32,615 bases of DNA from an uncultured Flavobacteriales bacterium (GTDB lineage: Bacteria; Bacteroidota; Bacteroidia; Flavobacteriales_D; Sanyastnellaceae). Both the position numbers and the translations under genes were made by a program. The stretch lies in the NCBI GenBank assembly GCA_943787435.1, contig CALSMK010000030.1:1-32615 (forward strand). The letters are read 5' to 3'. The notes below the pieces were generated by a model that made no database searches, was not told where the DNA came from, and worked only from the letters and a program-made list of their open reading frames with translations. This document shows positions 11,545-20,090 of this stretch, in pieces (positions within the stretch are counted from its first letter, which is position 1; the number at the start of each line of letters is the position of its first letter).

Positions 11545-12519
11545 TTACTTTCTGATTTCGGGCCATTTCGGGTGGACCACAAAGCCCCTGGATATTTCTT
11601 CCCAACCGGCGTCACCTTCAATGACAACGGCGCACATCAACGCCCGGTGGGTGCGTGAAAAATGGTCGTGAAGGACGGCTTCCAAGCGGCTCCAGTGCAG
11701 TGGAGGATCCCCGTCCGTGGGGTGGAATTTACCCAGCCATCGGCCTTTGGGGAGCGGAAGAATTCGCACGTGTTCGCTGCCCATAACGTGGTGCGCTTCA
11801 TCGGGTTTGCACCACCATCCCGCTGCATATTCGGGATGGGCATACTTGGGCGGACGGTGTTGGTGCAGCCTTGAATGGTGGTGAAAAAACCAGCCTTTCA
11901 TCAGCAGCACCGGTTCTGGGGTGGAGATTCGCTCTTGGTGCATGAAGGCCTTAGCGGCGGGCAACCTGCTGGCAGCGAGTTGATTCACCAGCTTGTTCAT
12001 TTTCCCCTCCAGGGTGTCGTGGCGACCGGATGGGCCCACCCAATTGGACCAGGCGTTTCCGTCCTCGGCAGCGAGGTAGAATTTGCTGGCCACTTCGAGG
12101 TGAAGGGTGCGGCCTCTGTGAATGTCGTCGACCAGAAAGTCGAGTTCGCCAATGGTTCTTTTGTCGTCTTGCAATTGCACACTGTGCGCCCGCAACCGAA
12201 AGTGCGGACTGGCGTCCAACCAGAAGGCGATCAGGGCTTCAAAGTGTTTGCCAAGCAATTGTCCTGCAGGCTCGAGGACATGCGGTGGGAGCGGGTTTTC
12301 GCCCATCGCCAGCAAGGAGGCCCACTCCTCAAACAGAGGCAAGTCCGCGGACAGCGCGTCCTTGCACCAGGTGTCGTCCAACACTTGGAAGCCCAATTCA
12401 GGGTGTCGGGCCATGAGAGGAGCGGAGCCGACGGCCCATCGAAGCCGCATCAGTGCTGCGAGAGCTTGGGGTTGATCGGTCAATGGACCACTCCATCGGT
12501 TGAGCCAGGGGTCTTGCAC
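11545..12519 (-). CDS. DUF1853 family protein
   Basis: Matches the DUF1853 family by its core layout: LRWAVGSAPLM near the N-terminus, then GKHFEALIAFWL, and the signature GELDFLVDD followed by LHLEVASKFYLAAED, with WVGPSGRHDTLEGKMNKL after it. The Asp, then Glu-x-x-x-Lys arrangement in the signature resembles the core of PD-(D/E)xK nuclease folds; that is my inference and no activity is established here. The open frame extends to 12798, but that would overlap almost all of a coding ORF on the other strand. I therefore favour the GTG at 12519 (324 aa), just before VQDPWLNRW, as the start. The family is more familiar from Proteobacteria. It faces an ORF/DUF4924 pair across a 32-bp divergent gap. 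Confidence 0.75.
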   Translation of the reverse strand: MQDPWLNRWSGPLTDQPQALAALMRLRWAVGSAPLMARHPELGFQVLDDTWCKDALSADLPLFEEWASLLAMGENPLPPHVLEPAGQLLGKHFEALIAFWLDASPHFRLRAHSVQLQDDKRTIGELDFLVDDIHRGRTLHLEVASKFYLAAEDGNAWSNWVGPSGRHDTLEGKMNKLVNQLAASRLPAAKAFMHQERISTPEPVLLMKGWFFHHHSRLHQHRPPKYAHPEYAAGWWCKPDEAHHVMGSEHVRILPLPKGRWLGKFHPTDGDPPLHWSRLEAVLHDHFSRTHRALMCAVVIEGDAGWEEISRGFVVHPKWPEIRK

Positions 12520-12551
12520 GCTGCGAAATTCTACCTTCGCAACCGAAAGCC

Positions 12552-12800
12552 ATGAGAACCGTAGCTCAAATTCCCCATCGCGCCATGCGAATTGTTGTTC
12601 AAGAATGGAATGACAAATACCACGTGCAATTCGTTTGGGGTCCTTTGGAACAGACCTATCGTCTTCCTGTTGAGGGAAGTGGAGGGCTGGAGTCGGTGCG
12701 GGAATTTGCCTCGCGATTGGTGCCAGAAGTGGAGCAGATGTTTCTTCAAATGAAAGAGACCAGGGCTGCTGCATTGAACCCGGATTCCCCGAAGACATGA
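12552..12800 (+). CDS. small conserved-looking hypothetical protein
   Basis: An 82-aa ORF whose stop codon overlaps the start of the DUF4924 gene (12797-12800, ATGA). A later ATG at 12585 (MRIVVQEWNDKYHVQFVWG) may be the true start. The sequence reads as a small alpha/beta protein with no signal peptide or membrane segment and no known motif. Coupling to DUF4924 is the only functional clue. Confidence 0.6.
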   Translation: MRTVAQIPHRAMRIVVQEWNDKYHVQFVWGPLEQTYRLPVEGSGGLESVREFASRLVPEVEQMFLQMKETRAAALNPDSPKT

Positions 12801-13330
12801 CCGAGACAACTGCTTCCGAAAAACGAGACCAGCATGTGGTGGAGTACCTGTTGTACGAATGGCAAATGGAGGATTTGGCGCGCGCTGTCGAATTCGATTT
12901 GCCGGCGCTAAGGGTCCACTTGTCTGCGGCCTATGAAGGAGACCGGCTGGAAGCCGAGTTGACTTGGTTCGCGGATTTAATGCGCGATTTGAGGAGGGAG
13001 AACAAATCCCATTCTGGACACAGGTCCAAGTTGGATGAGCTCATGATCGAGCTGACTTATCTGCACAAAACGCTGATGGAAGTCCTGAAGGACGAAGAGT
13101 ACAAGTCGGCGGTGGACGGAGCTCAGCCCCACCTTTCGGCCATGGAGGCCAAGGGAGAAGCGGGGAAATCAGAGGTGGAATCCATGCTGATTGCCTTGTA
13201 CGGGTGGTTGGTGCTTCGGATGTCGGGAAAAACGGTCACGCCAGAAACCCAAGAGTCCCTGGATGTGATCCGGGACTGGGCCAACTTGTTGGGGCAGCGT
13301 TACATCCGAATGCGAGCTGGCGAGCTTTGA
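12797..13330 (+). CDS. DUF4924 family protein
   Basis: A 177-aa, mostly helical soluble protein that fits DUF4924, a Bacteroidota family of unknown function. Supporting blocks are VVEYLLYEWQMEDLARA near residues 14-30, WFADLMRDLRREN, then SMLIALYGWLVLRMSGKT and the final DWANLLGQRYIRM. The length is typical for the family. It overlaps the preceding 82-aa ORF by four bases. It ends 15 bp before a convergent gene, with no visible terminator. Confidence 0.85.
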   Translation: MTETTASEKRDQHVVEYLLYEWQMEDLARAVEFDLPALRVHLSAAYEGDRLEAELTWFADLMRDLRRENKSHSGHRSKLDELMIELTYLHKTLMEVLKDEEYKSAVDGAQPHLSAMEAKGEAGKSEVESMLIALYGWLVLRMSGKTVTPETQESLDVIRDWANLLGQRYIRMRAGEL

Positions 13331-13345
13331 ACGGCTCGTCGACAG

Positions 13346-13777
13346 TCAGCTGGCCTTCCTGCGAGAGGAGGGGTCAGTGGGTGAAATGACGCGGTCGGGA
13401 CGCATCTGGCCTCCCTTGTCTGCTTTTTGAGTCATTCGCAACGTGTGAATGAAGCGAGCGAAGCCATCCACCCAAGTGCCGTGAGGCGTTCCCTGAGGAA
13501 CCCAGCGCACAGGTCGACCTGAGTCCAGAAGGTCGGCCAGTTTCCTGGAGTCTGGATTGGGGTGGACCAAAAACACAGGGCGGCTGTCTAGAATGGCTTG
13601 CTCCAAGTTGGAGGTAACCAAAACCTCTGTTGGCTGGGCCTTGAGGCTCGAGAGGGTTTCTTCGAGTTGAATATCCAAAGCGGGCAGAATGGAGTCCAAA
13701 CCTTCAAAAAGGTCAGGCAATGCCTTCAGCGCATTGGGCAGGATTTCGACCCTGAAAACGGGAGAAGTGAGTACCAT
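13346..13777 (-). CDS. hypothetical protein
   Basis: A 143-aa protein that I do not recognise. I chose ATG 13777 (MVLTSPVFRVEILPNALKAL) because upstream residues from the earlier in-frame ATG at 13849 look non-coding. The N-terminal half is helical and amphipathic (LPDLFEGLDSILPAL), and the middle has alternating strand/helix character (TEVLVTSNLEQAILDSRPVF). The tail is polar and basic. There is no signal peptide or membrane helix. It is divergent from the adenylyltransferase gene at 13914. Confidence 0.55.
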   Translation of the reverse strand: MVLTSPVFRVEILPNALKALPDLFEGLDSILPALDIQLEETLSSLKAQPTEVLVTSNLEQAILDSRPVFLVHPNPDSRKLADLLDSGRPVRWVPQGTPHGTWVDGFARFIHTLRMTQKADKGGQMRPDRVISPTDPSSRRKAS

Positions 13778-13913
13778 GATGTTGACATACGCAAGGTTTC
13801 GACGAAGGTTACAGTGTTCAACTTGGAATTTGTGATGGGCGTCAACCATTCAAAGTGGATAAGCCTGAGTCTCCTTTGTTGATTGCGCCCTTGGACCTCG
13901 GAATTTCACATGA

Positions 13914-14990
13914 ATGGGGATTGCGTCGTTCCGTCCGAAACTGTTTGCCCTTTCCAATGCGAAGGAAAGGGAGGCTTGGCGCGTGTTTTCGCAGTCTCGG
14001 TCAGCCCCTCTTGACTCCAGTCGTCTGGCGGGCCAATGGAAGGAATGGTACAGATGTGAACATCCTCAAGCGGGGCCGTTGCCCACCGATGAGGTCTTGG
14101 AGTTCGCCTTTGCTGCCCGTCAGGGATCAACGGAGACCGGGAGGTATGGCACAGTGGCTTGGTACCCTTGGAGAAATCAGGCCATTCTTTTGTTAGAAAA
14201 AGAGGAGTTTATTCAAGTTCGAACCAACCGGAATCAGTTGAAAATTCGGGAGGAGGAGCAGGTCAGTTTGTCGGCCAAGAATGTTGGCGTGGTTGGCCTT
14301 TCGGTGGGACGGAGCATTGCATTGGCCCTGTCCATGGAGCGGATCGCAGGAAAGCTTCATTTGGCAGATTCAGATCAGATTGAGCTGTCCAATCTCAACC
14401 GGATGCCGTGTTCCCTTTTTGAATTGGGGACGTCCAAATTGGTGTCCACTGCGCGCGCCATTGCAGAGGTCGATCCATTCATTGAAGTCGAAGTCTGGCC
14501 CGAAGGGTTTCGTGCCGAGAACATTGGCGATTTCATGGAAAACCTGGATTTGGTGGTGGACGCATGCGATGGGTTGCAAGCCAAAGCATTGTTGAGGATG
14601 GGTGCCCGAGATCGACGCGTTCCTGTGGTCATGGAGACCAATGACCGAGGATTGATTGATGTGGAGCGCTATGACCTGGAGGAGACCCAAGATTTTTTGC
14701 ATGGCCGAGTAACGGCTGAGCAAATGAGCGAGTTGGCCAGCGGAGGATCATGGTCGCCTGAATGGCTCGACGCTTTCGTTGACTTGTCCGAAATCAGCCC
14801 TCGTGCCCAAGAGAGTTTGGCCGAAGTGGGAAAGACCTTGGCGGGTTGGCCTCAATTGCACAGCGACGTTGCCCTTGGCGCGGGCGCCGCGGCTTCCACC
14901 ATACGTCGACTCCTGCTGGGGGAAGAGATCGCCGACCAACGCATTCGATTTGATTTAAATGAGCAGCTCTCCGTCGCATATACCGCGTGA
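13914..14990 (+). CDS. ThiF/E1-like adenylyltransferase, Rv1355c-type
   Basis: A 358-aa protein of the E1/ThiF superfamily, most like the N-terminal half of mycobacterial Rv1355c-type proteins. After an N-terminal extension (FRPKLFALSNAKERE; YGTVAWYPWRNQAILL at 78-93) comes the nucleotide-binding Rossmann core: VGVVGLSVGRS (124-134) replaces the usual GxGxxG, and ADSDQIELSNLNR (151-163) supplies the acidic pair and the Arg finger. DLVVDACD and PVVMETNDRG follow. No zinc CxxC pair or catalytic-thiol loop is obvious. The nitroreductase-like second domain of Rv1355c is absent. Family logic predicts ATP-dependent adenylation of a carboxylate or protein C-terminus; the substrate is unknown. It overlaps the acyltransferase gene by 32 bp, so the two probably work together. 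Confidence 0.8.
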   Translation: MGIASFRPKLFALSNAKEREAWRVFSQSRSAPLDSSRLAGQWKEWYRCEHPQAGPLPTDEVLEFAFAARQGSTETGRYGTVAWYPWRNQAILLLEKEEFIQVRTNRNQLKIREEEQVSLSAKNVGVVGLSVGRSIALALSMERIAGKLHLADSDQIELSNLNRMPCSLFELGTSKLVSTARAIAEVDPFIEVEVWPEGFRAENIGDFMENLDLVVDACDGLQAKALLRMGARDRRVPVVMETNDRGLIDVERYDLEETQDFLHGRVTAEQMSELASGGSWSPEWLDAFVDLSEISPRAQESLAEVGKTLAGWPQLHSDVALGAGAAASTIRRLLLGEEIADQRIRFDLNEQLSVAYTA

Positions 14991-15705
14991 GTCAGTGGAC
15001 ATCGCCCGCACTTTGCGGGAGGTGACCCTACACGTTTTTCGGTCGGCTGACGACCCGAAACTCTCTGAGCGATTTGCACAGGGACACGAGGCGGTATTGC
15101 GCGCTGCGGGCATCACCAAGTTGACCTCGTTTGGGCAAGATTGGTTGGGCGATGAAAATGCGATTCTGTTTTTGCTGACCTGTCAGGATGATGAAGTGTT
15201 GTTGAGTGGAATGCGCCTTCAACGCCGTTCCGGGTATGGCAGCCTTCCCATGGAGCGTGCTGTGGGCAGTCAATACCCTGAGTTGGGCGACCACTTGGAC
15301 AACCTTCAGGATGAAGGCTGTGCTGAGTTTTGTGCGTTGTGGAGCCGAAGAGAAACGGCAGTAGCTGGCATTGCCATGTTGCCCATGGCTTGTGTCGGGT
15401 TGGGTTTGATGCCTCAATTGAACATCCGGCATGGTTTTGCTTTTATGGGGACCAACATGCGGCCGATTCAAAGGGAATTGGGCTTTACCATTTTGGAACA
15501 CATCGGTGAGGATGGGCAGTTTGATTACCCCCGACCTCCCATCCGTTCTGAGGTGGGGCATTTCTGCCATCCAGAAAGCCTGAATGACGCCGCAGAAGAT
15601 GTGCAACTGATGGCGCGTCGGGCTGCAGAAGAGCCGAATCATACGCACAGCATGGACGGTCGTTTCCATCGCATCCATTACCGGGTGGAGAACCACATCG
15701 CCTAA
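14959..15705 (+). CDS. GNAT-like N-acyltransferase
   Basis: A 248-aa soluble protein with a GNAT/acyl-amino-acid-synthase-like pattern: a variable N-terminus, an acidic strand-turn EVLLSGMRLQRRSG (near 80-93), SLPMERAVGSQYPEL, then EFCALWSRRETAV (near 122-134). The helix-rich block GLGLMPQLNIRHGFAFMG and RELGFTILEHIGE correspond to the acyl-CoA-binding and C-terminal core. The acyl donor and acceptor are not evident. A GTG at 14995 is an alternative start that would avoid overlap with the upstream gene. The stop TAA overlaps the next start by one base (TAATG at 15703-15707). This gene sits between the adenylyltransferase and a sensor kinase, which suggests a shared product or signal. Confidence 0.6.
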   Translation: MSSSPSHIPRESVDIARTLREVTLHVFRSADDPKLSERFAQGHEAVLRAAGITKLTSFGQDWLGDENAILFLLTCQDDEVLLSGMRLQRRSGYGSLPMERAVGSQYPELGDHLDNLQDEGCAEFCALWSRRETAVAGIAMLPMACVGLGLMPQLNIRHGFAFMGTNMRPIQRELGFTILEHIGEDGQFDYPRPPIRSEVGHFCHPESLNDAAEDVQLMARRAAEEPNHTHSMDGRFHRIHYRVENHIA

Positions 15706-17885
15706 TGGGCGTTCGTCCGATATACGGACGCATGCGGGGATGGGTGTGGATTGCCCTGGCATTCACCTGGTGTTTACAGGGGTGTTCGGAAGGCGCAACG
15801 GAACGGAAAGTAGACGCTTTAGAGCTGATGGCACTGGAGGACGTGGACGGAACGCTCAGGCCCGATGAGGTCCATTTGAGAGCCCAGCTTTTGCAGCCTT
15901 TGGAAGGAGAACAGCCCAATTTGGGCATGCGCAATTCAGCCTACTGGGTGAAGGTGTCGGGTTGGCAAGGTGCCCCAAGGAATGCACGCATCATCCTCGA
16001 CAATCCGACGGTGGACTCCATAGATGCGGTGATTTTGGATGGCCCAAGGGTGCTTGGTCGTCAACGGTCAGGTGCGGCTTATGGCAAGACAGAGGACTTG
16101 ATTCCCACCTTCAATTTGCCATTAAATGTGGACCATGAACTTTGGTTCAGGGTGAGGAGCACAAAGCCATTGGTTCTGCCATTCACTTTGACCCAAGTGG
16201 ACCGTGTCAAGACCATGCGGGTGCAGCGAGACTTGGCGTTGGCGCTTTACACAGGCATCGTATTGGCCATCCTGATTTACAATTGTTTTTTGGCATTCAG
16301 CACCGGACAGCAGGCTTATTTCAGTTATGTGTTGGTGGTGCTCACAGTGGGATTGGTGCAGTGGAGTTTCAATGGCTATGACCGCTTGATTTGGGGGCAC
16401 ATTCCTTGGTTGGCCAGAAATGGTTTGACGATCATGGGTGCGTCATCGGGGCTAGCAGCGTTGATTTTTGCCCGAGAATTCTTGGAGGTCAGGCGGTACA
16501 CCCCGAAGTGGAACCGATGGATTCAAGGCCTCTTGGTCATCTATGCTTCGGCCTTGCTGGCGGCCCTTGTTGAATCAGCCACTTTTGGCGTATAACTTGG
16601 TCAATTTGGGGGCGTTGTCTGCGCCGGCGATGATCGTGTTGTCATTGATCAGCTGGCGGCGGGGAAACACATCGGCCCTCTGGTTTTTTGTGGCTTGGCT
16701 CATTTTTTTGGTGGCTGTCACCACACAAGCGCTTCGAGATTTTGGGGTCTTGCCTTCCACTCCTGTAACGGCATTGTTTATGCCCCTGGGTACCGTCTTT
16801 GAAATGCTGTTGCTCAGCTTTGCCTTGGGCAACAGGATTAACCTGCTCAAGCGGTCGTCAGATGCGGCCAACGCCAAAGCCTTGGCGGCCTCTTTGGAAA
16901 ACGAGCGCATTGTGAAGCAGCAGAATGCCGAGTTGGAAATGCGGGTCCAGCACCGCACCGAGGCTTTGGGTCAAGCAAACGCAGAATTGTCGGGGGCGCT
17001 GGATGAATTGAAGGGTGCCCAAGACCAGTTGATTCAAACTGAAAAGTTGGCGTCATTGGGTCAAATGACAGCGGGCATCGCCCATGAGCTCAACAACCCC
17101 ATCAATTACGTCCAAAGCAATGCCACATCGCTGCGCAGGGACATCGAAGAGCTCATCGAGATTGTCGACGCTTACTCGGAGGCGTTTGCCGCCATGGCAG
17201 AAGGGGCCCATGGCGCCCAAGCCATGGCTGAAGCTGCCGCTGAGAAGTCCAGGAAATTGGACTTGGACTTTTTGAAAGAGAAAGCCGGCAATTGGTGGCG
17301 GGCATCTTGGAGGGCGCTGATCGCACCACAAAAATTGTCGGTGGCTTGAGGGTTTTTGGACGAATGGATGGTGACAAGCCCGTGAAGGCATCTTTGGCGG
17401 AATTGCTGGAAGCCAGCATCACAGTGTTGGGGAACCGCGCGAGAAGCAAAGCGAAAATCGAAGTGTCTCTCAGAAGATGTGCCTGAGCTGTGGTGTCAAA
17501 GCGGAAAGTTGAGTCAGGTCTTCATGAACATCGTGGTGAACGCGGTTCAAGCCACGGAGAGCCGCTGGTCGGATGCCGAGCAGCGCATCGTGCGGGTGGA
17601 ATTGAAGCACCTCATGGCCATGGGGGAAGGTGTGAACACTTTGGAGGTGCGGTTCAGGACAATGGCACTGGGATGGATGAGGAGACCCGTCAGCGGGTAT
17701 TTGACCCTTTCTATACCACCAAAGATGTGGGCAAGGGAACGGGCTTGGGCTTGAGCATTGTCAAGGGCATTCTCGATGACCACGGCGCCCAAGTAGAAGT
17801 GGAAAGCACCATGGGGGATGGCACCACATTCATTCTGACCTTTCCGATCACCGATGAGGCGCAAACCAAAACGGAGGCGGCCTGA
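15705..17885 (+). pseudogene. 7TMR-DISM sensor histidine kinase, frameshifted
   Basis: About 725 aa over five frame pieces. A lipoprotein-like signal from the second Met at 15732 (WCLQGC) leads into a 7TMR-DISM extracellular domain (about residues 40-160; RNSAYWVKVSGW), seven hydrophobic segments, a coiled coil, the HisKA H-box [20 protein letters not shown] at about 17046-17105, and an HATPase domain with N-box VFMNIVVNAVQA, G1 DNGTGMDEE, F-box FDPFYTTKD and G2 GTGLGLSIV. Frame changes are needed near 16570, 17295, 17470 and 17660. All catalytic motifs survive, so sequence error is more likely than decay. The start codon overlaps the acyltransferase stop. It probably passes phosphate to the receiver proteins just downstream. 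Confidence 0.88.
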
Positions 17886-17905
17886 CTTTGCATTGAACTG
17901 AAAGC

Positions 17906-18504
17906 ATGGCAGAGGAGACCATACGCGTCCTCTACCTCGATGACGAGGAGCCCAACTTGTTTTCGTTCAAGGCGGCCTTTCGCCGGGACTTTGAGGTGCA
18001 CACCTGCGACGAGCCCCACAAGGCGGTGCGCCTGCTCGACGATGCGCAGTTTCCACGTGGTGCTCAGCGACCAGCGCATGCCGCGGATCAGCGGGGTGGA
18101 GTTTTTTGAGCTCATCATGCCCGACCACCCGGATGTGTCCAGCCGCATCCTCGTGACGGGTTATGCCGACACCGATGCCGTCGTGGACGCGATCAACAAG
18201 GGGCAGGTCTACCGTTTTGTCTCCAAGCCGTGGAATGAGGAGGAGCTGCGTGAACGTGTCATCCAAGTTCGGGTTACGACCTGAACCGATCTCGAGGGTC
18301 AGCAACGCTCGAGCAGGCCACGCAGGTGCTTGGCGGCCTGATGGAGGGCCTTGTGGGCGACCTCGATCGAGGCTGACTGCGGATTTGAGTTGGCAGGCCG
18401 TGGGGCCGACCGCTAGCCCAAGAGCTGTCGCTTCTCAAGGGCAGGATGATGGAGGAGCGCACCCGATACGGAGGTGGGTGGAGTTGCAAAATTCACGCAA
18501 ATAA
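17906..18504 (+). pseudogene. response regulator with receiver domain and C-terminal extension, frameshifted
   Basis: The receiver domain begins VLYLDDEEPNLFSF, with the acidic pair near residues 11-12. After a frame change at TTT near 18050 (one base too many) it continues HVVLSDQRMPRISG, containing the phospho-acceptor Asp, then LVTGYADTDAV and RFVSKPW with the conserved Lys. Beyond 18270 the frame changes again: GYDLNR then ATQVLGGLMEGLVGDL indicate a helical tail. Further breaks bring it to VELQNSRK and a stop at 18502-18504. No DNA-binding domain is seen. It starts 20 bp after the kinase stop, so it is the likely partner of that kinase. Confidence 0.75.
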
Positions 18505-18561
18505 GTATCGAGAAGTCTGTCCTACAGAGGGTTTAGATTCTGTTTCCGATATTGAGAATGG

Positions 18562-18991
18562 ATGTCCAAAGCGCTTGAATTTTGGTTGGTCGATGACAAC
18601 GAAATCGACCGCGTGGTCAATGGTCGGCTCATCGAGGCGGCCTTTGGTGCCCGTCCAAGTCGTTCAAAGATGGTCCCACTTTCTTGGAGGCATTGTCTCA
18701 AGATTCCGGGGTAGAGGAGGACGATTTGCGGCCTGGTTCTGCCCTTGGCCGACGCGTCGTCTGGTATTGCTCGACATCAAAATGCCGGGGCTCGATGGAT
18801 TCGGTGTCCTCGAGCGCATGGAGATGTATCCCACCACCGCCTTGTCCCGCACGACGATGTTCATGCTGAGCGCCACCCTGGACCCCGAAGAATTGCGCCG
18901 CGCAGAGGGCCACCCCATTGTGGAGGCCCTGCTGCCCAAGCCGCTCGACATCCACCAGCTTCGCGGCTGGCTGGAACAGGTCCGCCGCTGA
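18562..18991 (+). pseudogene. single-domain response regulator, frameshifted
   Basis: From ATG 18562 the protein reads MSKALEFWLVDDNEIDRVVN, with the acidic Asp pair of a CheY-like receiver. Frame changes near 18655 and 18740 are needed to reach PTFLEALSQDSGVEEDDL, then LVLLDIKMPGLDGFGVLERM (phospho-acceptor Asp), FMLSATLDPEE and LLPKPLD (conserved Lys). It ends with a helix at GWLEQVRR. The length, about 143 aa, is that of a stand-alone receiver. It is the second receiver in the cluster, so a branched or relayed pathway is possible. Confidence 0.75.
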
Positions 18992-19003: not shown

Positions 19004-20090
19004 TCAGAGGTACTTGAAGTCCTCGCCGGGCTTGATGTTTTGCAGGGTCTCGTAGATGAGGCGGATGCAGTCTTCGACGTCCTGCTTGTGCACCATCTCA
19101 ACGGTGGTGTGCATGTAGCGCAAGGGCAGGGAAATCAATGCGCTCGGCACGCCCTGGTTGGAGTACGCAAAGGCGTCCGTGTCCGTGCCGGTGAAACGGC
19201 TGGCCGCCATGCGCTGCAAGGGGAGTTTGTTGGCGTCTGCCGTGTCGATGATGCGTTGCAGCAGGTTGTTTTGGACCGCGGGGCCGTAGGTCACGCCCGG
19301 GCCTTTGCCGGCAGCCACGTCGCCCTGCTCGATCTTGTTCATCATCGGGGTGTGCGTGCAGTGCGTGACGTCGGTGACGATGGCCACGTCGGGCTGAATG
19401 CGCTCGGCGATCATTTGGGCGCCGCGCAAGCCAATCTCCTCTTGCACGCTGTTGGTGATGTACAGGCCAAAAGGCAGCTTCACTTTGTTTTCTTGCAGCA
19501 TGCGGGCCACCTCGGCGATCATGAATCCACCGGCGCGGTTGTCGAGTGCACGGCCCACGTACCACTGCTTGTTGAGCAGCATGAAGGTGTCCTCGTAGGT
19601 CACGACGCACCCGACGTGGATGCCCATCTTCTCACCTCAGCCTTGTCTTTGGCACCGACGTCCAAGAAGATGTTCTTCAGCGTGGGGCGCGCTTCTTTGC
19701 CGGCTGTGCGGGTGTGGATGGCAGGCCAGCCAAAGACGGCCTTGACGGTTCCCTTTGGGGTGTGGATGTCCACGCGCTTGGACGGGGCGATTTGGTGGTC
19801 GCTGCCGCCGTTGCGTCGCAAGTAGATGAAGCCGTCGCTGGTGATGTAGTGCACGAACCAGCTGATTTCGTCGGCGTGCGCCTCGATGACCACCTTGTAT
19901 TCGGCCTCGGGATTGATGACGCCCACGACGGTGCCATACGTGTCCACGATGTGCTCATCGATGTAGGGCTTGACGTAGTCGAGCCACAGTCTTCTGACCG
20001 GCACTTTCGAAAGCCGGTGGGCGAGGGGTTGTTGAGGTAAGCCTCCAGAAACTGCTCTGAGGCGCGCGTGATGATTTTCTTCTTGGCCAT
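19004..20090 (-). pseudogene. M42-family glutamyl/leucyl-type aminopeptidase, frameshifted
   Basis: About 360 aa of a co-catalytic metallopeptidase. The N-terminus MAKKKIITRASEQFLEAYLN at 20090 is followed by NNPSPTGF. Two one-base insertions near 19995-20015 and one missing base near 19635 interrupt the frame. Metal-ligand blocks are visible in order: EAHADEISW (His, and Asp nearby), GRALDNRAGG (bridging Asp), NSVQEEIGLRGA (catalytic and binding Glu), VTDVTH (Asp) and LRYMHTTVEM (last His). M42 enzymes are cytosolic dodecameric aminopeptidases in peptide turnover. All ligands remain, so the breaks are probably sequence errors. It converges on the second response regulator with a 12-bp gap. 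Confidence 0.88.

Follow-up and report, generated by a model that had tools for sequence, protein, structure and literature searches.

Does a cluster of five genes in an uncultured Flavobacteriales bacterium encode the means both to make and to detect a small molecule? The cluster lies at positions 13914-18991 of contig CALSMK010000030.1 (assembly GCA_943787435.1, family Sanyastnellaceae; genome completeness 78.5%), and positions 1-32,615 of this contig are the window in what follows. Encoded there on the forward strand are a ThiF/E1-like protein, an acyltransferase (AT), a 7TMR-DISM sensor histidine kinase and two receivers, and a sequence-only reading had proposed that together they make and detect an acylated molecule or a surface modification. 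We consider it quite probable that the locus represents one form of a cassette for making and perceiving a signal in Bacteroidota, composed of the AT, a finishing enzyme and a 7TM sensor. On our best reading of the sequences, the AT and its partner would make a signal derived from an N-acyl amino acid, either an oxazolone or a methyl ester, and the 7TM sensor would read it.

The distribution of the genes bears on this directly. AT loci were defined by an open reading frame (ORF) scoring >40 bits against a purpose-built AT profile; with two duplicates dropped (L080, L160) and two fragments of one gene each counted (L044, L045), there are 192 distinct Bacteroidota loci. The AT is present in 36 of 60 genomes of relatives and in 13 of 395 genomes across the phylum, the window's own genome included in both counts, and in 46 of 147, 28 of 118 and 1 of 54 genomes of families f15, f19 and f44, respectively. 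The 74 matching genomes of f15 and f19 contributed 67 loci, five genomes being already included (G183, G066, G133, G168, G330) and two with fragmented matches being left out (G477, G548). Scanning named genomes for the pattern yielded 398 confirmed sites, of which the best 80 were taken, a sample biased towards Sphingobacteriaceae. A same-strand 7TMR-DISM kinase adjoins the AT, or lies one gene off, in 183 of the 192 loci, and the AT lies by a 7TM kinase in all 13 AT genomes of the phylum sample (the kinase being broken in the window). Since the 12 genomes examined have just 1-4 7TMR-DISM genes each, the linkage is not attributable to chance. Six of the other nine loci reach a contig end: the contig continues for 0-2 bp in L045, L046 and L047, for 684 bp in L092, and for 2447 bp in L112, where a ThiF-flavin oxidase fusion takes up the space. 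In L066, with 793 bp left, the next ORF is unrecognised, and this locus is possibly a true exception. The last three (L222, L223, L224) are weak AT matches (119-156 bits), divergent AT-like proteins outside any cassette with PAS-type histidine kinases nearby. Plasmid-borne copies were not matched with the L144 AT as query.

The ThiF partner shows the same association. Matches to the Rv1355c-family model NF005901 at E ≤ 0.001 occur in 331 of 390 phylum genomes and 12 of 14 controls, and are nearly always generic ThiF/MoeB proteins or nitroreductases. Strong matches (>140 bits) to the ThiF half of the model number 11 in the 390 genomes, and 11 of 11 sit at loci with both AT and 7TM kinase; the remaining two of the 13 AT genomes have an ICMT-like methyltransferase in place of ThiF. 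Recurrence of the same arrangement across the phylum makes the operon more than a chance assembly. The co-occurrence that the sequence-only reading had named as support, to be sought in a gene-neighbourhood survey of Rv1355c-type proteins, is thus what the genomes hold, and the outcome it had said would count against the system, homologues free of an adjacent kinase in nearly all genomes, is not what they hold.

What would the AT (14959-15705, 248 aa) make? It had been called GNAT-like, a description that stands on the predicted fold but finds no match in NCBIfam or, at E ≤ 0.1, in Pfam. The Pfam family FeeM (PF21926) does not match the window protein, and its one hit among scanned AT proteins, below the cut-off, is to the weak match L224. 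The predicted structure (pLDDT 78) has FeeM, MesI, BjaI, RpaI or EsaI chains (FeeM or acyl-homoserine lactone (AHL) synthases) as all of its 15 best PDB matches, which are the kinds of enzyme against which a structural search had been recommended. The best match is 2g0b (E 8.5e-08, TM-score 0.72 by target); normalised to target, TM-scores are 0.67-0.76 for FeeM chains and 0.52-0.55 for the AHL synthases within the top 15. The predicted fold is common to FeeM, the LuxI-type AHL synthases and the window AT, but identity in the fold matches is just 9-18%. The model suggests an AHL-synthase/GNAT-type enzyme, predicted to be an N-acyl amino acid synthase. TyzA is likewise described as closest in structure to FeeM and BjaI (PMC10404671). 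One cassette (L182:7296-9260, genome G530) carries two tandem AT genes.

The partner of the AT in the window is the ThiF/E1-like protein (13914-14990, 358 aa), a predicted cyclase of the N-acyl amino acid, whose ORF shares 32 bp with that of the AT (14959-14990 region), as the sequence-only reading had reported. It matches Pfam ThiF at 68.8 bits (cut-off 28.1) and NF005901 at 349 bits over model positions 49-340 of 722, which upholds its assignment as Rv1355c-type; the score is under the full-length cut-off of 476 because the second half of the model is absent. Judged by these matches, the protein corresponds to the N-terminal half of Rv1355c/TrzS family members and lacks their flavin oxidase. 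Full fusions of ThiF and flavin oxidase (FDO), 756-781 aa long, occur in relatives of the window, and their FDO part matches the Acg nitroreductase 2ymv. Only the ThiF part is present in the genus of the window and in several further lineages. An oxidase query (E ≤ 0.001) found no flavin oxidase elsewhere in 13 FDO-less genomes, including the 78.5% complete genome of the window; a 14th, unrelated FDO-less genome was matched at 19 bits, and five of five fusion-bearing genomes were matched. Residue D219 of the window protein does not vary among 20 homologues and is matched to an aspartate of TcdA, in an alignment without TrzS; in TrzS the conserved adenylation-site aspartate is D217.

The nearest known counterparts are TrzAS (Rv1356c/Rv1355c), OxzAB and TyzACB, which also set an acyltransferase beside a ThiF-type enzyme that belongs to this NCBIfam family, and whose kind of ThiF-flavin oxidase fusion is borne by the window's relatives. 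TrzAS and TyzACB make N-acyl oxazolones, and the substrate of TyzACB and OxzAB is tyrosine, with OxzAB also using phenylalanine (PMC12856293, PMC10404671). The window enzyme differs in having no oxidase, and the cassette differs in that ThiF is replaceable by methyltransferases and in that a 7TM kinase is included; the relevant passages of the two papers report no sensor kinase at those clusters (PMC12856293, PMC10404671).

The enzyme beside the AT varies across Bacteroidota: it may be ThiF, ThiF-FDO, an S-adenosylmethionine (SAM) methyltransferase, an ICMT-like methyltransferase, once a flavin adenine dinucleotide (FAD) oxidase, or none. The 183 linked loci comprise 69 with ThiF lacking a recognised oxidase (a class that includes contig-edge fragments in L061 and L079 and a 693-aa protein in L178), 66 with ThiF-FDO, 31 with a SAM methyltransferase of class I (length 252-265 aa in 30 measured), five with an ICMT-like methyltransferase, one in which a contig edge leaves just the end of the oxidase, and 11 with none of these types. 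Among the 11, L174 has a 535-aa FAD-linked oxidase, and contig ends truncate L044 and L191. The versions seen in the window's own family all carry ThiF. The chemistry common to the finishing enzymes may be to cap an N-acyl amino acid at its free carboxylate.

If the finishing enzyme determines the structure of a signal, which part of the neighbouring kinase follows it? Co-inheritance was compared across 56 named loci (Sphingobacteriaceae and allies; 11 genera) and, more coarsely, across 41 loci of f15. The 56 were drawn from the 80 named loci by keeping those with a kinase of at least 600 aa (76 loci), a named genus and a receiver-kinase protein (RR-kinase). Trees were quick maximum-likelihood trees with SH-aLRT support, except for a careful 37-row AT tree. 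The contrast between the two halves of the kinase is pronounced: a single change between ThiF and methyltransferase suffices on the tree of the sensor half (one for DISMED2 alone and one for 7TM alone), compared with seven each for the kinase half, the AT and the RR-kinase, and shuffled labels always need at least 11. With ThiF and ThiF-FDO split apart, the sensor needs three changes, versus 12-13 for the AT, RR-kinase and kinase half. Genus labels give the changes 10 for the RR-kinase (the minimum for 11 genera), 11 for the kinase half, 13 for the AT and 16 for the sensor.

The 20 methyltransferase-linked sensors form a single clade (support 99.5), and approximately unbiased (AU) tests reject a methyltransferase clade for the kinase half (p 3e-57), AT (7e-11) and RR-kinase (3e-43), as does the careful AT tree (p 1e-4). 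Sphingobacterium is one clade for the kinase half and AT, and its monophyly is not rejected for the RR-kinase but is for the sensor; monophyly of Mucilaginibacter is rejected for the sensor and the AT (AT p 0.001) and not for the kinase half. Windows of identity place the switch from following enzyme type to following genus near kinase residue 400, where the 7TM domain ends. For example, the kinases of Sphingobacterium multivorum (methyltransferase) and S. alimentarium (ThiF) are 29% identical in the sensor half and 66% in the kinase half. It appears that genera have exchanged the finishing enzyme and the sensor half jointly, as a unit, and the kinase half, AT and RR-kinase fit the organism better. 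A tail of the AT moving with the enzyme, hinted at by the identity windows, was not borne out, as separate trees of AT parts gave seven changes each.

In f15, the 13 loci with ICMT-like methyltransferase or no enzyme form one sensor clade (99.6), and this clade is rejected for the kinase half (1e-4), the RR-kinase (6e-7) and the AT (3e-5, with the FAD-oxidase locus held outside). This grouping, ThiF versus ICMT or none, is the sole one that sorts cleanly and was chosen after the first tree was seen; L182 was relabelled in this set (its ThiF-FDO lies beyond the second AT copy) and L191 was dropped (contig edge). In the broader set of 67 loci, enzyme type takes eight changes on the AT tree and two on the kinase tree. 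By analogy, inheritance of an enzyme with a sensor half, against the rest of the same protein, is the pattern that would be expected of a signal and its receptor. It constitutes indirect evidence for a system that makes and detects, with detection itself an inferred step.

How might such a cassette work? From its fold, the AT would move an acyl group onto the amino group of an amino acid, and the finishing enzyme, by its family, would modify the product, most simply at the free carboxylate. In the window, the ThiF-type enzyme would adenylate the carboxylate and close an oxazolone ring, which should remain saturated because no flavin oxidase was found there; a saturated acyl-oxazolone, or what hydrolysis leaves of it, is the predicted product. 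Other lineages fill this slot with ThiF plus flavin oxidase, which would give a desaturated oxazolone, or with either of two unrelated methyltransferases, which would give a methyl ester. Co-inheritance suggests that the finished molecule would be read by the DISMED2/7TM half of the neighbouring kinase. The signal would then pass to receivers without a recognised DNA-binding domain and, for the majority of the other lineages seen, to a receiver-HisKA-HATPase protein as well.

Several observations weigh against a signal made by the AT and its partner and read by the 7TM sensor, and some of them favour other explanations. Eight cassettes have no recognised gene between AT and kinase, and the idea of a carboxylate cap, which fits ThiF and both methyltransferases, does not fit the FAD oxidase or an empty slot. 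The receivers have no recognised DNA-binding domain. In f15, the AT needs two ThiF/non-ThiF changes (counting the FAD-oxidase locus as non-ThiF), the same as the sensor, and clean sorting by every enzyme state fails there (sensor 9, AT 11, RR-kinase 12 and kinase half 13 changes). Oxidase presence takes seven changes on the AT and kinase trees of the 67-locus set alike, so the kinase does no better. Enzyme and sensor are also near neighbours, and recombination at conserved flanks could move both without functional need. Homologous recombination via the AT and kinase core, swapping enzyme and sensor half with no ligand relation between them, would profit from the contiguity of enzyme and sensor in methyltransferase-bearing loci and from the high identity on both flanks. 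We nevertheless regard such linkage alone as quite improbable: the kinase half lies in the sensor's own gene yet does not travel with it, which weighs against mere contiguity, DISMED2 and 7TM behave alike, and one change on the sensor tree versus seven for the flanks indicates that mismatched pairs were not kept in the 56 loci. Biosynthesis clusters often include a regulator, and the 7TM kinase could sense an outside cue, for example a carbohydrate, and switch on production of a lipid, antibiotic or surface-active compound that is not its ligand. The ligands given for DISMED2 in passages of two papers are carbohydrates only, as a prediction (PMC8846402) and, for NicD, as a link to direct carbohydrate binding (PMC8544897), and the function of oxazolones is unsettled (PMC12856293). 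However, an external cue need not change along with head-group chemistry, and of the two halves of this protein it is the sensor, not the kinase half, that tracks enzyme type, which makes an outside cue, to us, an improbable account.

Other doubts concern the product. Tryptazolones in the mycobacterial work were more abundant inside cells (PMC12856293), and, rather than cyclising the acyl amino acid, ThiF might activate it for attack by a different nucleophile. The AT product would then still be a signal, finished as an ester, amide or thioester, or else as an oxazolone that is hydrolysed at once. The absence of flavin oxidase in the window's lineage is compatible with this, as are the stieleriacines and kyonggic acids, for which ThiF genes are present yet oxazolones were not observed (PMC12479983). 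Set against it is the cyclised, non-oxidised TrzS intermediate detected under limited oxygen (PMC12856293), by which cyclisation is independent of the oxidase, and we consider a ThiF enzyme that leaves no oxazolone rather unlikely. Far less credible is an E1-like system modifying a protein or surface polymer. The ThiF fold is common to E1 enzymes such as UBA5, but the family match is to the small-molecule enzymes of the Rv1355c type, the proteins examined included no recognisable ubiquitin-like partner, and methyltransferases replace ThiF while the AT is kept. Nothing was found in support of the surface modification that the sequence-only reading had offered as an alternative.

Beyond the signal-synthesis and perception cassette as such, we lean slightly towards a wider proposition, in which these loci are a widespread Bacteroidota quorum-sensing family. 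Its N-acyl-amino-acid autoinducers would come in head-group dialects (saturated oxazolone, desaturated oxazolone, methyl ester and perhaps free acid), each with a matching 7TMR-DISM sensor half. A lineage would change its dialect by exchanging enzyme and sensor half while keeping its own synthase, kinase and relay.

The relay has a parallel in Ralstonia. In L144 and L065 the domain plan is a sensor kinase, a receiver-kinase hybrid and a single receiver, with no DNA-binding domain recognised; the window's genus has two single receivers and no hybrid (L068). PhcBSRQ comprises a methyltransferase, a sensor kinase, a receiver-plus-kinase protein and a single receiver, the last two without a DNA-binding domain, and its signal is a fatty-acid methyl ester, 3-hydroxymyristic acid methyl ester (3-OH MAME) (PMC8578825). 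Likened by domain plan only, it matches the methyltransferase version of the cassette (L144), from which it differs in that the cassette adds a FeeM-like synthase and a 7TMR-DISM sensor and, in the window's genus, has single receivers alone. Pherotype exchange in comQXP of Bacillus, where the joint diversification includes the N-terminal part of the receptor, resembles the pairing of the cassette's enzyme and sensor half. The comQXP polymorphism is one in which a signal-modifying enzyme and its receptor diversify together (PMC4408185); here the signal would be a small molecule, not a modified peptide, and the phylum and enzymes are other ones. In f19 cassettes (L202-L226 except L215 and L222-L224), 21 of 22 have a receiver protein of 517-573 aa nearby. 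The one scanned (L203:12452-14062, ~1.6 kb from the divergent receiver) combines a receiver with PglZ and is presumably PorX-like, and a link of these neighbours to type 9 secretion control is possible.

The downstream half of the cassette is frameshifted in this assembly. The AT stop codon TAA (15703-15705) shares a base with the kinase start ATG (15705-15707), giving the TAATG overlap read earlier. The earlier description of a 7TMR-DISM kinase followed by two receivers holds for domains and order, but the kinase (15705-17885) is not one ORF and both receivers are out of frame. Three ORFs cover the kinase: 15705-16595, with DISMED2 and the first part of 7TM; 16468-17349, with the remainder of 7TM and HisKA; and 17490-17885, with HATPase_c. 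By Pfam, the sensor half comprises DISMED2 (15825-16193, residues 41-163) and 7TM (16230-16836, spanning a frameshift), and the kinase half comprises the HisKA and HATPase_c region (17056-17852, interrupted by frameshifts), with the HisKA piece at 25.6 bits, slightly under its cut-off of 26.9. The first receiver (RR1) occupies 17906-18506, its end approximate, and the second (RR2) 18562-18991, its start approximate. A 90-94% identical genome (G012) has intact ORFs for the kinase (727 aa) and the receivers (194 and up to 172 aa), and all four kinase domains that are in pieces in the window lie in one protein in its orthologue (L068). Compared with G012, the window has no gap openings across 4014 bp upstream (11568-15581), 28 in 3421 bp of 15584-18989, and six more in the adjoining gene of an M42 aminopeptidase (19004-20090, reverse strand; family assigned from relative L041), which is frameshifted too. 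Local sequence error is a more likely cause than decay. Kinases in two ORFs also occur at L149:13341-15466 and L202:8415-10495, from frameshift or sequence error.

Upstream, at 11545-13330, are genes for DUF1853 and DUF4924 proteins, which many genomes of the window's family also have beside the cassette. A 167-aa protein with no Pfam or NCBIfam match (13346-13849, reverse strand) stands divergently beside ThiF in most loci of the genus. It occupies the place of the divergent receiver of other lineages, and its identification as a degenerate receiver was rejected (profile comparison probability 0.2).

What would the cassette mean for the biology of these bacteria? Among the matches listed in the open-access literature, with preprints and most subscription journals outside that scope, there is no published description of such a cassette. 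Workers in the field regard what acyl-oxazolones do physiologically as a major unresolved question, and have already suggested signalling on the basis of AHL-like structure and neighbouring cyclic di-GMP genes (PMC12856293). The coupling of enzyme and sensor, both physical and evolutionary, extends to cultured genera (Pedobacter, Mucilaginibacter) and makes the questions of oxazolone role and DISMED2 ligand directly testable. On the wider proposition of a quorum-sensing family, oxazolones would acquire a function in the physiology of the cell, and a class of ligands could be assigned to this 7TMR-DISM family. The exchange of a finishing enzyme along with one half of a receptor would be the counterpart, among small molecules, of peptide pherotypes.

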